NCBI GenBank assembly: GCA_005792145.1
Contig: SXSS01000016.1
Location: 1-38,455, forward strand
Reading direction: 5' to 3'
DNA from: Planctomycetia bacterium
GTDB lineage: Bacteria > Planctomycetota > Phycisphaerae > Phycisphaerales > SM1A02
DNA length: 38,455 nt
Under the pieces are notes generated by a model. It was not told the DNA's origin. It was given only the letters and a program-made list of their open reading frames with translations, and made no database searches. The position numbers were made by a program, and so were the translations under genes. How positions within the stretch are numbered: the stretch's first letter is position 1; every line of letters starts with the position of its first letter. Shown one piece after another: positions 13,168 to 21,104 of the stretch.

Positions 13168-15552
13168 ATGCTTCAAACCAGCGCCCGATTGATCCGAACA
13201 CTGCTCGCCGTGATGGCAGCACTCTTTGTGATCTGGGCATTCGTGACTGTTGCCGTGCGAGAAACCAAACGATTCTGGAAGAATGACAACCGCACTGAAA
13301 TCGTGGTGATGCATTGGTCTGGCGAAGGCGGTCAAGAAGAAGACCAAATCGTAGAGGACGCTCTTCGTCAATTCGAGCATGAAAACCCCACGCTTCGCGT
13401 TCGCAGAATCAATCCTGGCGATGCGGGCAGTTTTTATACGAAGTTGCAAACGATGATGGCGTCTGGAGATCCACCAGATGTTTTTTATGTTGGCTCGGAG
13501 CGATTGCCAGCATTTGTTTCACTTGGATTGATTGCGCCACTTGATGAGTTCCTGAAGCGTGATTCGCAGTTGAATGTGAAAGATCGAATCATTCTTGAAG
13601 ACTTCTATCCCGCGACTGTGAAGGCGTTTCAATATGACGGAATACAAAGCGGAGAAGGTGCGATCTATGGGATTCCAAAGGATTTCACCACAGTGGGTTT
13701 CTATTGGAACAAAGATCTTTTCGCTCGTGCGGGTCTTGCGCCACCATCGCAGAATTGGACTTGGGATGAATTTATCGCCGACGCTCGTGCGATCGGAAAA
13801 CTCCCCGATTGCACTGGCGCAGAATTTGTGACATGGCCTGCGATGATTCGCGCATATTTGATGACCGAAGGAGTTGATGTCAAGGGAAGTTCATTCGATG
13901 AACCAACAACATCCAATCCAGAAGTTTTCAATGCACTGGATCGACTTCGCTCGTGGCGACACGACGAGAGCCACACGCTGACAAGTGGCAAGAGCAAGAT
14001 TGCAAGTGGATCAAGCGTTTTTCTGAGTGGAAAAGTTGGACTTGCTGGACCATTCGGTCGATGGGTCGTGCCGAGTTATCGCAAGATTGCACCAAGAAAT
14101 CAAGGTGGATTTGAGTGGGACTTCGCTCCCCTGCCGCGCGGCAAAGTCGACAGCAATATTGTCCTGACTGTCTCGTGGTCAATCTCAAATCAAAGCAAGC
14201 ATCCGCAAGAAGCGTGGTCGCTTGTTCGATTTCTTTCTGGCGAACCAACCCAACGTGCGCTTGCTCGACTTGGACTTGCGATCCCAACAATTCGCGCTGC
14301 GGCGAAAAGCGAATCGTTCAACGATCCAAATCAAGAACCTGCCAATGACGCTGGCTTTCTGACTGCAGCAGATCATGCGCGCATCGTTGATTGGCCCACA
14401 AATCCGCAGTTCGAGGCGCTTTTAGGATCGCGTCTGGATCAAGGACTGAAGACGGGAGATCTTCCGCTGAACGAAGCGATTACAAACTTCGAGCGCGACT
14501 GGCGAGTGGAATCGCAAAGCCCGCTTCGCAGTGATTCTTTTCCCGCGATGCCGTGGACCGCACTCGGATTGATCGCACTGATCGCATCACTTGCAGGACT
14601 CGCTGTGTGGATTGTGATTCTGCGCCGTGGAAATCTTCCCGCGCATCAGCGATCGGAAGAACGCGCAGGATATTTTCTCGCATCACCGTGGATTGTTGGA
14701 TTTGCTCTATTTATGGCATTTCCAATTGTCATGAGCTTGGCTCTGGCATTCGCCCGCTGGAAAGGAGTCTCGCCACTCAGTTCCGCGGAATTTGCAGGCA
14801 CTGCAAATTTCCAACAACTGCTTCAATTCGACCAACGCTTTCGCACCAGTCTTGTCGTCACTGCCTATTACGCAATTCTCGCAGTTCCTGCGGGGCAAAT
14901 TCTCGCCCTCCTCGCAGCTCTGCTGATGAATGCACGTGTGCGTGGTATCCATCTCTTTCGTGCGGCGTGGTATTTGCCAAGCGTGCTCGCTGGTGTTGGC
15001 GTCGCGGTTCTTTGGCGGTGGATCTTTGATTCGGATGGCGGACTGATGAATGCGGCGTTGCAACCCCTGCTCACACCACTTGGCCTGACTGCGCCAGAGT
15101 GGTTCGGACAAGATGCGGCGATTTGGGGAGCACCGGCATTCGCATTGATGAGTCTCTGGTTTGTCGGCGGCACAATGATTGTTTTTCTCGCGGGTCTTCA
15201 GCAGATTCCAATTGAACTCTATGAAGCTGCATCAATCGATGGCTCTGGACGATTGAGACAATTTTGGTCGATCACTCTGCCGATGCTCTCGCCGATCATC
15301 CTCTTCAACGGGATTATGGCGATCATCGCAAGCTTCCAAGTTTTCACCCAAGCATTCGTGATGACTGGAGGCGAGCCCGGCGATCTCACGCGATTTTATG
15401 TTCTCTATTTGTATAACCAAGGATTCGAGTTTTATGAAATGGGATACGCCAGCGCGATGGCGTGGATTTTATTGTTGGTCGTGCTTGCACTCACCGTGAT
15501 CATCTTGCGCACGAGCAATCGATGGGTGCATACCGAAGGACAGAAGTCATGA
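13168..15552 (+). CDS. Sugar ABC importer: solute-binding protein fused to MalF-type permease
   Basis: 794 residues combining two normally separate subunits. Residues 10-30 are a membrane anchor. Residues about 45-450 are a family-1 extracellular sugar-binding protein (VVMHWSGEGGQEEDQIVEDALRQFE... SGDPPDVFYVG; YGIPKDFTTVGFYWNKDLF). A membrane segment at 463-485 leads into a MalF-like permease (500-782) with about six helices and the EAA loop YEAASIDGSGRLRQFWSITLP (685-705) that contacts the ATPase. Tethering keeps one binding domain permanently at the translocator. The downstream permease overlaps by ATGA, so the two are coupled. Divergence from the GH13-malQ-glgP operon points to maltodextrin as substrate. 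Start ATG 13168 has no obvious Shine-Dalgarno. SBP-permease fusions are known in some ABC importers; a fusion in this arrangement for sugar uptake is unusual. Confidence 0.87.
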   Translation: MLQTSARLIRTLLAVMAALFVIWAFVTVAVRETKRFWKNDNRTEIVVMHWSGEGGQEEDQIVEDALRQFEHENPTLRVRRINPGDAGSFYTKLQTMMASGDPPDVFYVGSERLPAFVSLGLIAPLDEFLKRDSQLNVKDRIILEDFYPATVKAFQYDGIQSGEGAIYGIPKDFTTVGFYWNKDLFARAGLAPPSQNWTWDEFIADARAIGKLPDCTGAEFVTWPAMIRAYLMTEGVDVKGSSFDEPTTSNPEVFNALDRLRSWRHDESHTLTSGKSKIASGSSVFLSGKVGLAGPFGRWVVPSYRKIAPRNQGGFEWDFAPLPRGKVDSNIVLTVSWSISNQSKHPQEAWSLVRFLSGEPTQRALARLGLAIPTIRAAAKSESFNDPNQEPANDAGFLTAADHARIVDWPTNPQFEALLGSRLDQGLKTGDLPLNEAITNFERDWRVESQSPLRSDSFPAMPWTALGLIALIASLAGLAVWIVILRRGNLPAHQRSEERAGYFLASPWIVGFALFMAFPIVMSLALAFARWKGVSPLSSAEFAGTANFQQLLQFDQRFRTSLVVTAYYAILAVPAGQILALLAALLMNARVRGIHLFRAAWYLPSVLAGVGVAVLWRWIFDSDGGLMNAALQPLLTPLGLTAPEWFGQDAAIWGAPAFALMSLWFVGGTMIVFLAGLQQIPIELYEAASIDGSGRLRQFWSITLPMLSPIILFNGIMAIIASFQVFTQAFVMTGGEPGDLTRFYVLYLYNQGFEFYEMGYASAMAWILLLVVLALTVIILRTSNRWVHTEGQKS

Positions 15553-16412
15553 ATCGCTCGCTCTGGAAACTCTTGCAATACGCAATCCTGCTTGCGGGCG
15601 CGGCAATCTTGCTTCTGCCGTTGTGGTGGATGTTGGTCGTGAGCCTTGAAACTCCAGAACGCGCGGGATCCGCGATCACAGGAGGGAGTGGACTGTCACT
15701 TTGGCCGCCATCGCCACAGTGGGGCAACTATCCACAAGCACTGAGCGAAATGGGATCGGTGCCATGGCAAGGTTTTCTCAACGCACTTGCGAATTCGATC
15801 GTCGTCACCGTGCTTGTTGTGGTCGGCACTGTGCTTTCAAGCAGTCTCGTCGGTTTCGCGTTCGCGCGCATTCGCTTCCGCGGCAGTCGCGGACTTTTTC
15901 TCTTGATGCTCGCAACAATGATGTTGCCTGGACAAGTGACAATCATTCCTCTCTTCCTGCTCTTTCGCAATCTTGGCTGGATTGATTCGCTTCTTCCGTT
16001 GATCGTGCCGGCATTCTTTGGCAATGCATTCTTCATTTTCATGTACCGCCAATTCATCGGGCAAATCCCCGAAAGTTTGCTGGAAGCGGCGAAGGTCGAT
16101 GGATACACATTGATCGGCATCTGGTGGAGAATCATTCTGCCACTCTGCCGTCCTGTCACTGCGATTTGCGCGGTTTTCACCTTCATCTATGTCTGGAATG
16201 ACTTTATGGGTCCGCTGATCTATCTGCACTCCGACGAGCAAGCAACGCTTGCCGTTGCGCTCAATTCATTTCGAAATCAGTATGGCGGGCTGGAGGATGT
16301 GCACCTGTTGATGGCGGCAAGTTTGGTCACAATGGTTCCATGCATTCTGCTTTTCGCAGCATCACAGCGTCACTTTATCGAAGGGCTCGCTCGCGGAGCA
16401 GTCAAGGGATAG
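15549..16412 (+). CDS. Sugar ABC importer permease (MalG type)
   Basis: 287 residues with six predicted membrane helices (12-32, 77-106, 115-139, 146-166, 203-222, 252-270). The EAA motif LLEAAKVDGYTLIGIWWRIILP (about 177-198) binds the nucleotide-binding subunit. It overlaps the fused binding-protein/permease gene by ATGA (15549-15552), which fixes the start and implies equimolar translation. It should pair with the MalF-like half to form the channel for maltodextrins or a similar oligosaccharide. No ATPase gene follows directly; the nearest, at 17882, is separated by an opposite-strand gene and carries a stop codon. Confidence 0.92.
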   Translation: MNRSLWKLLQYAILLAGAAILLLPLWWMLVVSLETPERAGSAITGGSGLSLWPPSPQWGNYPQALSEMGSVPWQGFLNALANSIVVTVLVVVGTVLSSSLVGFAFARIRFRGSRGLFLLMLATMMLPGQVTIIPLFLLFRNLGWIDSLLPLIVPAFFGNAFFIFMYRQFIGQIPESLLEAAKVDGYTLIGIWWRIILPLCRPVTAICAVFTFIYVWNDFMGPLIYLHSDEQATLAVALNSFRNQYGGLEDVHLLMAASLVTMVPCILLFAASQRHFIEGLARGAVKG

Positions 16413-16456: not shown

Positions 16457-17851
16457 TCATTGCGAGCGAACCGGCTGGTTGTAATTTGCGCGCAGCCACT
16501 GCACCGCATTCTCGGCGTTCTGTCCCTTGACGGTCAACATTCCGCTCTGAGACATCAGCGCATCAACTTCTGCTTGCAGTGCATTGACATCCGACTTGAA
16601 TTCTGGATTGGTCCTCATCAAAGGATTTGCAGCAAGTTCGTTCGCTACCCTTTTCGCACTCGAAGCCGCGTCGCTCGCCTGCCGATACAACTGCAAGACA
16701 AGATTCCATGCGTCGATGGCAGTATCAGAATTCTTCCGCCAAGAGAAGGTCCCTCCAGAACTCGACCTCCAACCACTTCTACCCCAACTGCGCGAATAGG
16801 AACCTTGAAATTGCTGTCGTCGAGGATCGGCTTCGCGTGCGATTGCTTCTGCTTCGATCATTGCGCCAGTGAGATTCATCGCAGTCTTGATCGCATTGAA
16901 TCCTCTTTTGATAGTGAAATGCAGGTTGTCAGATTCTTTTTGCTTCAAAGCCTGAATCTCTTGCAAGATTTTTTCCCCGACACCAACTTGGACCTGCCAA
17001 CTCTTCACCCCAAGCGCGGGACCAATTTGTTCAAGACCTCCAGTGACACCGAGGGCTATTCCAGCAGTCACAAGTTGCGCTCCAGTCATTCCAGTGAGTG
17101 AATCTTTTCCGCTGCTCAACTGAACAGCGTCGACTCCAGCTGGCGCACTTTCAGCAGCCTCTGGACATCCATCGCTCCCCTTCCACAAGAAGAGATCGAC
17201 CGAGGGATCGAGCAACCCCTTCAAGACATTCTTTAAATAAGGACGATCCGACGCACGCGAGGTGATTGTGGAAAGATTCGTTTGAATCTGCTGAGCAATG
17301 TTCGCATCCGAAAGATCCGATCCAGGCGCCCAGTCCATCACGATTCCATCCGCACTTGGATTCAAGACAATTAAATAATCGCAAAGCACGGGCAGAACTG
17401 CGCCAGGACCTTCCACTGAACCAAACACACCGATGACTGGCATGATCTTGCGAATCTTCAGAATTTGATCTGCAAGCACGGCAGTATCCGGCTGCGTTCC
17501 ACCCGTGACATTGAATTGAATCACGAGCGCATTCACACGGCGCGATGCGGGCGAACCTTTGATAAAGACTTCAAGCGCTTCTGTGATCGTTGCGTCACCA
17601 ATCGCTCCATTGAGTGGAAGAATTGCGTATCGCAATGTTGTCGATAGCTTGCGATCGCGTGAGCACTTTGATGTCGGCGGCACTGCGTCCATCGGACCGT
17701 CTTGCGCGCCGACTTCTGCTGGCGGCACGGTTGCGGGAGCTTGCGCGTTGGAAGTTTGCGATTGAAGGCAAAGAGCAAGGGCAAGAAGATTGAGAGTGAT
17801 TGGATAAATAATGTGGGTCAACTGTTTCATGGAAGTGATGTTGTACCTCAT
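16457..17851 (-). CDS. Exported protein with a degenerate ClpP/crotonase-like (NfeD-type) domain
   Basis: 464 residues from ATG 17851; an in-frame ATG at 17830 gives an equally good signal peptide (MKQLTHIIYPITLNLLALAL) and leaves more promoter room, so the start is uncertain. Residues about 73-175 resemble the membrane-bound NfeD-like serine protease fold (YAILPLNGAIGDATITEALEVF, ALVIQFNVTGG, MPVIGVFGSVEGPGAVLPVLCDYLIV). Where the active Ser sits in a SAG/SAA context in proteases, this protein has GSVEGPGA, so proteolysis is doubtful. A Ser/Arg/Trp-rich linker (about 345-375) and a helical, coiled-coil-prone C-terminus follow. It lies between the importer permeases and their ATPase on the opposite strand. 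Function unknown. Confidence 0.62.
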   Translation of the reverse strand: MRYNITSMKQLTHIIYPITLNLLALALCLQSQTSNAQAPATVPPAEVGAQDGPMDAVPPTSKCSRDRKLSTTLRYAILPLNGAIGDATITEALEVFIKGSPASRRVNALVIQFNVTGGTQPDTAVLADQILKIRKIMPVIGVFGSVEGPGAVLPVLCDYLIVLNPSADGIVMDWAPGSDLSDANIAQQIQTNLSTITSRASDRPYLKNVLKGLLDPSVDLFLWKGSDGCPEAAESAPAGVDAVQLSSGKDSLTGMTGAQLVTAGIALGVTGGLEQIGPALGVKSWQVQVGVGEKILQEIQALKQKESDNLHFTIKRGFNAIKTAMNLTGAMIEAEAIAREADPRRQQFQGSYSRSWGRSGWRSSSGGTFSWRKNSDTAIDAWNLVLQLYRQASDAASSAKRVANELAANPLMRTNPEFKSDVNALQAEVDALMSQSGMLTVKGQNAENAVQWLRANYNQPVRSQ

Positions 17852-17881: not shown

Positions 17882-19096
17882 ATGGCAACAGTTGAATTGA
17901 AAGCGGTATCGAAGATCTATGGAACAACGGTTCGAGCTGTTGATTCTGTCGATTTATCCATTGCGGATGGCGAATTTATCGTCCTAGTTGGCCCTTCGGG
18001 GTGCGGCAAGAGCACAACTTTGCGCATGATCGCCGGATTGGAGGATCCTTCTGGGGGAACTATTTCAATCGGCAACCGCATCGTGAATGATGTACCTCCT
18101 AAAGACCGAAACATTGCGATGGTCTTTCAGAACAACGCGCTCTAACCACATCTGAATGTTCGACAGAATCTTTCCTTTGGACTTGAACGCCGCCGCACTT
18201 TCAAAAGTCGCTGGCGTGGCATTTGGGATTCTGCTTACCGCACACAGCGTCACACCGAGCGCCTTGCGATCACAGCACGAGTCGATGCAGCTGCGCGCAC
18301 GCTTGGTATCGAACATTTGCTAAATCGACCGCCACGCGAACTCTCCGGCGGTCAAAGGCAGCGCGTCGCCGTTGGGCGAGCGCTCGTGCGAGATCCAGCC
18401 GTCTTTCTCTTTGATGAGCCGCTTTCAAATCTTGACGCGCTCTTGCGTGGCGAAATGCGTACCGAGCTTCGCATCCTGCACCGCAGTCTGCAAGCCACGA
18501 TGGTCTATGTCACACACGATCAAGAGGAAGCGATGAGTCTCGCAGATCGAATGGTGGTGATGAAAGATGGCATCGTCCAACAAATCGGTTCTCCGGCGGA
18601 AATCTATGAGCGCCCAGCAAATCGTTTCGTCGCTGGATTTATAGGAACTCCGCCGATGAATATGTTCGAGGGACGCTTGACGACCGACAGCACTGGCGGC
18701 TTCACTTTTCACTGGAATCAAAGCGAATTTCCGCTTTGTAAGCGATGGGTTGCTGCCGAACTTTCAGCAATTGGCCAGAACTCTCTCACGCTTGGAATTC
18801 GGCCGGATCGACTGACGATCGTGCCCATTGACGAGAAACAAGATTCGCCATGCGTGACTGGTCAGGTTGTCACTATCGAACGATATGGGCCTCTTGCAGA
18901 CATCGTCGCACTGGTCAATGGGACGCGCGTCATCTCGCGAACCGCGGCAGACGCACTCGGTGCAATTCGTGAAGGAGATGCGATCACTCTTCGACTTGAT
19001 ATGCAATTTGCGCATATGTTTCGCGCGGATGGCTCGGCGGTCACGTCCCCCGTCACGTCCCCCGTCACGTCCCCCGTCACGTCCCCCAGGAACTGA
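17882..19096 (+). pseudogene. ugpC: Sugar ABC importer ATPase (UgpC/MsmX/MalK type) with one in-frame stop codon
   Basis: One frame of 404 positions encodes a full MalK-like ATPase except for TAA at 18143-18145. Before it: Walker [10 protein letters not shown] (37-45) and the Q-loop MVFQNNAL. The family has MVFQNYALYPH here, so TAA replaces the second Tyr, and Asn (AAC) replaces the first. After it, in the same frame: [12 protein letters not shown], signature LSGGQRQR (154-161), Walker [23 protein letters not shown] with the switch His, and a regulatory OB-fold tail. Everything else looks intact, including codon usage. Possible readings: a recent nonsense mutation, a sequence error, readthrough, or reinitiation at the TTG at 18317, which would lack Walker A. 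A roughly 20-residue extra stretch ([20 protein letters not shown]) sits in the helical region. The C-terminus is a repeat-encoded (VTSP)4 tail. Confidence 0.85.
19041..19088. repeat. 12-bp tandem repeat, four copies, inside the overlapping 3' ends of two genes
   Basis: TCACGTCCCCCG occurs at 19041, 19053 and 19065, and as a last copy with one change at 19077-19088. On the plus strand it encodes Val-Thr-Ser-Pro four times at the end of the ATPase. On the minus strand the copy at 19077 supplies the TGA that ends the dockerin of the GH13 protein. The two convergent genes overlap by 20 bp here (19077-19096). There are no spacers, so this is not a CRISPR array. Confidence 0.9.
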
Positions 19097-21104
19097 GCAG
19101 ACTTGTCAGGTCGCCTCCACCGACGATTCCGTTGCCATCGATATCTGCGATCCCTCCGAGAGTTCCCCATGCGGACAACAGCACTGTCAAATCAGCTGCG
19201 TTAATCTGTCCATCTTGATTGAGATCTTGTGGTCGCAAAACATTCCCTTGAGAAAATATAACCGCTGAATATGGACCGACCGAAACAAGCGCGCTCTGTT
19301 CCAGACCATCCCATGCAACAGGTGAAGTCGATGTCGAGAGACAAAGAGTGTTGGAATAGTCAGCGCTATAACCCGTCCAATCGCTGTTGAATCTGCAATT
19401 CCACAGGCCACTACGCGGCATTCCGATGCGATAATTGGACTTTGCTGTCGCGGAAAAATTGACAACGACGATTGTGTCATCCAGATCACCACCCTCCTGC
19501 CAACGGTGAAATGCGAGCAATTTATCCGTGTTATTTAGATGAAAAACATTCGTACTGAAACCAGAAAGCCCACGCGTCGATCCCGAAGCATTCGTGCGAA
19601 GCTTGATGAGGTCCTGATAGAGCTTGAAGATTCCAGAGTATGTTGTCTTGCGGGACCAATCCAGCGCGACAGCGTCGGTAAAGAATTCATCCTCAAGAAA
19701 CTCCTGACCTTGAAAAAGCATTGGCACTCCAGGCGCAGTCATCGCGAGCACTGCGCCAAGTGTCGAACGCTTTCGCGCGAAATAGGAACCAGCGTTGCCT
19801 GGAGAAATCTCCTCTGGAACTCGCTGCTTGCCATTGGCGACTTCATCATGGCTTTCGGTATAAATGATTCTCTGCTGCATCGATCCGTTGTATGAAAAGG
19901 TAATCGCATCGCGCACGGAATACATATCACGGTCGCTGTCGTTTGGGGTGATGAGTGCGCCGCGAATCTTGGGATAGAAGCCAGCATCCCATTGGCTGTC
20001 GAAGCCAGCACCCCCTGCTCCAGTCGTCTTGGTGATGTATGGCTCGAGATCCATATCTTCAGCAACCATAAACTTTCCAGGAGCGACCGCATCGACATCG
20101 TTGTTTATCACCTGAAGAATTGACCAGCCATCTGGAATGTCCACACCATTCTGATCTGTTCTGCGGATGAACTTCGTTCCGTCAATTCGCAATCCATCCA
20201 TGCGAAACTCGTTCAGCCACATCATGGCGTTATCCCGCAGGAATGTCCGCACTTCACTGCGACCAAAGTCTGGACGCGTATCTCCCCAAGGGGTCACCGC
20301 GCGAAAATCGTTGTAGAAAAAGATGCCGCCCAAACCATTCTGCGACCAACCATCAAACTGCCACATATCCAAATCGTTTGGTCCAAGGTGGTTATACACA
20401 ACATCAGTCGTCACGCCGATTCCGCGCGCATGCGCGGCATCGACGAATTCCTTCAGATCATTCGGTGTGCCATACGCGCTTTCAACAGAATAGAGATATG
20501 AATTGTTGTATCCCCACGAACGATCTCCAGGAAACTCGCTGATCGGCATCAGCGCGATCATGTTCACGCCAAGTTCAACAAGGTGATCAAGCTTTGCAGA
20601 GCATTCGTCAAAGTTTGCGGGTGTCGCACCGCTCGCAGGGATGCCATATGTTCCGACATGCATTTCGTACAGGACAATCTTGTCCCATGTTGGCATATTG
20701 AAATTTGTCGTTTGCCATACATAAGAGTTTGCGTTATAGACAACAGAATTTCCAACCGATGAGACAAGATCGCGCGCGCGCGGATCGTTTCGCCAAAGTG
20801 TCTGCGTTGCATTTTTCACCACAAACTTGTACTGCGCTCCTGCTTGCACATTGGCAACATCGACGGACCAATATCCGTTTCCTTCTGCAAAGAGCGGCAG
20901 AGAAGTTGCATTCCAAAAGTTGAATGTTCCAGCGACTGTCACCCCAGTTGCGTTGGGTGCGAATGTTCGAAAAGTTGTTCCGATGAGGGTTCCAGACGCA
21001 TACGGAATTGCGCCGATACCGGGGCGAGTCGAAAAGGCTGCGAATGTTGTCGACGCAGCGAACAGCGCCACAACCAACGCGGGAATAACAGCGGGAATAC
21101 CCAT
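19077..21104 (-). CDS. Secreted GH13 branching-enzyme-like protein with GC-type dockerin
   Basis: 675 residues. Signal peptide 1-22 ([18 protein letters not shown]). CBM48-like domain about 35-125 ([38 protein letters not shown]). GH13 barrel with YEMHVGTYG (146-154), DVVYNHLGP (234-242), GLRIDGTKF (nucleophile Asp308), MVAEDMD (Glu349) and YTESHDEV (Asp420). These regions resemble the branching-enzyme group (GH13_8/9) more than amylases, although an exported branching enzyme is unexpected. The C-terminus (626-675) is two dockerin repeats, [13 protein letters not shown] and [13 protein letters not shown], each followed by LLSxWG. The other dockerins here end in SCQ or PCL; this one stops at WGT because the tandem repeat supplies the stop codon. 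Probably surface-attached or secreted; remodels alpha-glucan. Start uncertain by a few codons. Confidence 0.83.

Follow-up and report, generated by a model that had tools for sequence, protein, structure and literature searches.

An in-frame TAA in a planctomycete MalK/UgpC-type importer ATPase gene: recent nonsense lesion or consensus error

In the draft genome of a Planctomycetia bacterium, the gene for the ATPase of a predicted sugar importer is interrupted by one in-frame TAA. Has the strain recently lost the motor of its importer, does it drive or decode its way around the stop, or is the gene intact in the living strain and miscalled in the assembly? An initial annotation, made from the letters of the locus, had left four options standing (an ATPase borrowed from elsewhere, a freshly dead gene, a stop that is read through, or a wrong base) and had suggested aligning related homologues and searching the genome for a second UgpC/MsmX. 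Here, ‘the window’ is the whole stretch of DNA analysed, 38,455 nucleotides long; it corresponds to contig C62 of a 2.5 Mb genome that is assembled in 152 contigs and is 90% complete.

The interrupted gene and its importer

The ATPase gene (17882..19096, plus strand; 404 codons including the TAA, plus the final stop) opens with ATG at 17882, meets the TAA at 18143–18145 and continues unbroken to its natural stop at 19094–19096; when the TAA is read as X, the result is a 404-residue frame with X as residue 88. The 87-aa 5′ open part (17882..18142, plus strand) carries Walker A together with the first part of the Q-loop and matches positions 2–69 of the 137 positions of PF00005, and the 316-aa 3′ open part (18146..19093, plus strand) carries LSGGQ, Walker B, the switch His and the OB/TOBE tail, matching PF00005 positions 79–136, PF08402 and PF17912. 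We take Walker A to lie at codons 37–45, LSGGQ at 154–158, Walker B at 174–179 and the switch His at 212. The ABC_tran domain, in two pieces, and the MalK OB/TOBE tail are thus both found, with PF08402 scoring above its cut-off (26 versus 21) and PF17912 just under it (26.2 versus 27). The initial annotation had described a single TAA splitting an otherwise intact sugar-importer ATPase, with the same frame on both sides, all later motifs preserved and no further ATPase in the window; this description stands, and the profile search of the genome’s contigs returned no other ABC-model match on the contig of the window.

Both open parts score highest with UgpC and next with MalK, and the whole frame, with its one TAA, is the genome’s top match to the UgpC model NF008653 at 412 bits, a score that was computed for the stop-containing frame and that does not reach the curated cut-off of 432 bits. 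The gene resembles UgpC/MalK-type ATPases (NF008653/NF008233) in motif order, in its OB/TOBE tail, in its place beside sugar permeases and in its top family score; it differs from them in being cut at codon 88, in a Tyr-to-Asn change at codon 85 and in the score below the cut-off. In its present form, the gene does not encode a complete family member.

The partner genes lie upstream on the same strand. A solute-binding protein fused to a MalF/UgpA-type permease (13168..15552, plus strand; 794 aa, with PF01547 and PF00528 in one frame) is intact and 90.7–97.5% identical to its counterparts in five congeners, and a MalG/UgpE-type permease (15462..16412, plus strand), recognised by family matches, is likewise intact and conserved in congeners. 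Around the importer genes are a phosphorylase-family protein, a 4-alpha-glucanotransferase and two alpha-amylase-family proteins; these neighbouring gene families, the sole basis for naming a substrate, suggest that the importer is likely to take up an alpha-glucan, probably maltodextrin. A fusion of binding protein and permease may be widespread, since the frame at 13168–15552 also gave a single-piece tblastn match over 96% of its length, at 29.7% identity, on a Sinorhizobium plasmid. Between the permease and ATPase genes, on the opposite strand (16457–17851) and 30 bases from the ATPase start, lies the gene for a 464-aa protein that has no Pfam match and is 75–84% identical in five congeners.

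Codons 85 and 88 in relatives and the constraint on the rest of the gene

We searched 41 genomes, the window’s own and 40 relatives, and obtained matches in all of them. The site was examined in 21 homologues, from all 18 same-genus genomes and three of the six other genomes of the family; eight order-level loci were fetched but left out. In all 21, including every one of the 18 congeners, the frame is open across codon 88 (in G007 and G011 a contig end truncates the homologue further upstream, leaving this codon within the open frame). Codon 85 (18134..18136, plus strand), which lies in the Q-loop/coupling-helix region and reads Asn in the window, is Tyr in every one of the 21; at codon 88 (18143..18145, plus strand), 20 have Tyr and one has Asp. 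The alignment thus bears out the earlier reading that the stop replaces the second Tyr of the family motif and that the first Tyr has become Asn, and finds the stop absent from the examined relatives. A ‘1 TGA’ (G004) and a ‘1 TAG’ (G023) reported inside homologue matches sit a few codons at most from where the match ends.

A wider sample comprised the best 80 of more than 590 matching stretches in a species-level collection. The motif was readable in 77 of these 80 loci; the remaining three comprise a partly masked locus, a locus in which the motif ends in a variant form and a locus that begins further on. Among the 77, column 85 is Tyr in 71, His in 2, Phe in 2, Leu in 1 and Ile in 1, and column 88 is Tyr in 71 and Phe in 6, with neither Asn at 85 nor a stop at 88 in any of these readable loci. 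A degenerate motif pattern that required TAA or TAG as codon 88 occurred in one of 392 genomes of the phylum, the window’s own; this search had no sense-codon control, and its count does not give the share of the 392 that hold the motif at all. With this proviso on the phylum-wide count, the stop is private to the lineage of the window. One exact search for the same species in viral contigs gave 0 matches.

The coding sequence on either side of the stop is under constraint. Measured against G012, the nearest relative, dN/dS comes to 0.092 for codons 1–87 (four nonsynonymous changes, codon 85 included), 0.035 for codons 89–245, where pairs of intact relatives give 0.03–0.06, and 0.243 for the tail, where such pairs give 0.13–0.51. 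On the branch leading to the window genome, 25 synonymous and 5 nonsynonymous changes were assigned to codons 89–390 (17 changes remained unassigned) against a neutral expectation of about 65 nonsynonymous changes; G012, in which the gene is intact, has 16 nonsynonymous changes in the same codons, more than the window genome. No relaxation of constraint after the lesion is seen, the unconstrained part of the branch being at most 16% for codons 89–390 (95% upper bound) and at most 19% for codons 1–245 with the stop and the Asn included. There is no sign of decay in this gene besides the two neighbouring codons, as far as substitution patterns tell, and since constraint has been kept on the rest of the gene, the lesion would have to be young, or not real.

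Consensus quality and the paired change

How far can the consensus be trusted at these two codons? The 31 frames of the window were compared with contigs of five congeners, and each aligns in at least one; stops in the relatives’ versions of the frames fall where a 5′ end is too long or where frames overlap, as judged by position rather than one by one. Across 24 genes, the window genome deviates at 147 of 7371 codons that are invariant in the other genomes; the corresponding counts are 124 of 7183 for G012 and 87 of 7308 for G013. The consensus is thus not strikingly noisy: its count of odd codons is the highest of the three, yet near that of G012.

A larger comparison, of a 590-kb sample of the window genome together with the window versus 837 kb of G012, yielded 146 comparable loci and 54,345 codons. 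The stop in the ATPase gene is the only clear interruption of a gene body among these loci, with 95% identity on both sides. For the window genome, 15 rows with stops were listed in ten places, and only the ATPase row shows high identity on both sides: seven other places fall in columns 19–45 of stop-to-stop frames, which by position puts them close to or ahead of the probable start, that in L198 lies, on inspection, just before the apparent start, and that of L157 versus L210 (three rows) has the appearance of a shadow frame. Neither the window genes nor the 146 loci support genome-wide decay or a generally bad consensus. The ‘stops inside’ reported by the profile search for L007, L008 and L013 are natural gene ends.

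A single transversion accounts for the change in each of codons 85 and 88, and the two changes are 11 bases apart. By our own arithmetic, from a rate of 1.4–2% deviating invariant codons, an odd codon has about an 8–11% chance of another lying no more than three codons from it, and over 28,371 aligned sites there are eight same-direction A/T-transversion pairs within 12 bases, the present pair included. The pairing speaks mildly for a single event, whether a clustered mutation or a local miscall. A clustered mutational event is possible, since the genome has two above-cut-off matches to PF00817, which we take to be the IMS family of error-prone polymerases. Templated copying of the changed stretch was rejected: its 15-mer occurs once in the genome at up to one mismatch and its 12-mer once in the window at up to two, with no second copy in either case. 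In MalK, the F81–Y87 region accommodates the coupling helix of MalF/MalG, according to PMC7658222; with numbering matched by motif, both changed codons would lie in or beside this permease contact.

Readings of the interruption

The reading that we prefer, at a probability of roughly 0.57, is that a nonsense lesion has very recently arisen in the one CUT1-type ATPase identified for the strain’s alpha-glucan, probably maltodextrin, importer, because the site is intact in all 18 congeners and both the rest of the gene and its partners are constrained. Translation would stop after 87 residues, which would be the only product expected, and the half with Walker A and the half with the signature and Walker B would therefore never be joined in one chain. 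The view in the initial annotation that neither part would function by itself agrees with the placement of the motifs. Left with permeases and a binding protein and no motor, the importer would be off in cells that carry the allele, which is perhaps in a minority or transient in its population. The neighbouring Tyr-to-Asn change would most simply belong to the same clustered mutational event as the stop. Recent nonsense pseudogenes and null alleles of bacterial genomes are, we assume, the proper kind of comparison: the window gene is like them in its one stop, intact frame, constrained flanks and restriction to one lineage, and unlike them in the second unusual substitution 11 bases away and in that the allele is known here from the consensus alone. 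What speaks against such a lesion is that a gene kept in 18 of 18 congeners is not an obvious candidate for loss, that the window genome has the highest odd-codon count of those compared, that the close pair of changes is not rare in itself, and that two odd changes at this spacing suit a local miscall just as they suit clustered mutation. Such a miscall is the main rival, possible if clearly the less probable of the two: the gene would be intact in the living strain, and both odd codons would be local errors of the draft assembly. The fragmented and incomplete state of the genome fits this rival, as does the finding of two otherwise invariant codons that are odd within four codons of each other, in a gene constrained everywhere else and with neither change common to any examined relative. 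The absence of any other clear body interruption from the compared window genes and the 146 loci, the odd-codon rate close to that of G012, and the only mild improbability of a close pair by chance count against it.

Could the importer run without a repaired gene? The genome holds 46 matches to the UgpC model, of which the second best, on contig C47 (C47:15391–16452), scores 335.6 bits and the remainder 174 bits or less. This C47 ATPase is intact, 364 aa long and 40% identical to that of the window, and scores highest with PhnT2 (361.5 bits), followed by PotA and then UgpC. Its gene is arranged tail to tail with one that resembles an MFS gene, and close by on C47 are two putative alpha-L-fucosidase genes (L126:3450–7538 and L126:7965–10471), as named from their reading frames. 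The search for a second UgpC/MsmX thus turned up this PhnT2/PotA-type protein as the only other high-scoring MalK-like ATPase, and the assembly, 90% complete, yielded no second ATPase of the CUT1 type. That a real allele is compensated by this stand-alone ATPase, in the manner of MsmX, we regard as improbable, and a little more so the version in which the stop is fixed, alpha-glucans still enter by way of a cross-subfamily PhnT2/PotA-type ATPase from another contig and the dedicated gene is starting to decay. No permease was recognised beside the C47 ATPase (names taken from reading frames), and PMC7658222 describes shared ATPases among CUT1 sugar importers, the interchangeability of E. coli UgpC and MalK, and a 51% identical Synechocystis ATPase that substitutes for MsmX. 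The same paper reports ATPase exchange within the CUT1 subfamily only, and E. coli MalK and YcjV as unable to substitute for MsmX; as compared to the multitask ATPases MsmX and MsmK described there, the case is alike in that the window’s permeases would lack a working ATPase of their own, and unlike in that their ATPase gene is still present, as it is in all 18 congeners, and that the candidate helper is PhnT2/PotA-like. A likelier client of the C47 ATPase may be a two-domain 607-aa permease on contig C80; the sole ABC ATPase observed in the neighbourhood of this permease, at a distance of about 5 kb, scores 84.5 bits. Nothing in the data calls for a shared ATPase.

Readthrough of the stop, by suppression or recoding, would yield a full-length ATPase; we consider it very unlikely, for all that the frame downstream of the TAA is unbroken and under constraint, since this constraint is inherited from intact ancestors and the conservation of the stop expected for programmed readthrough is absent in 21 of 21 examined homologues. 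TAA terminates eight of the 30 window genes; reading past it would lengthen seven of them by 6–51 codons and carry the eighth on for 716 codons, into the gene that follows, which makes general TAA recoding implausible. The base after the ATPase TAA is C, which PMC5289835 links to more readthrough in yeast, but the same paper gives UAA as the least readthrough-prone stop in bacteria; the Asn at codon 85 would, moreover, persist in the product. Least credible of all is a split ATPase that works from two halves made separately by re-initiation: each half retains its motifs, but the 57 codons past the stop contain no in-frame ATG, GTG or TTG, the first such codon, TTG at 18317, is only eight codons before LSGGQ, and all 21 homologues examined run unsplit through the site. 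Of the four options in the initial annotation, then, the freshly dead gene survives on the strength of a gene that shows no decay besides two codons, and the wrong base survives even though nothing indicates general assembly error; borrowing and readthrough are unlikely, weakened by the family and identity of the sole other high-scoring ATPase and by the lack of the stop in examined relatives, respectively.

This is an ordinary broken or mis-called gene with no new mechanism, and either reading leaves the knowledge of ABC importers and of decoding unchanged. If real, the lesion is a snapshot of a genus-wide importer switched off by one event, ahead of any decay; if wrong, it is a warning that a draft consensus can mimic gene loss.

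The 3′ end of the ATPase gene contains a 12-bp repeat (19040..19087, plus strand) of 4.0 perfect copies, which keeps the frame and encodes VTSP four times; the G012 and G010 proteins end with a single TSP unit, and the array extends into the 3′ end of the convergent gene at 19077–21104.
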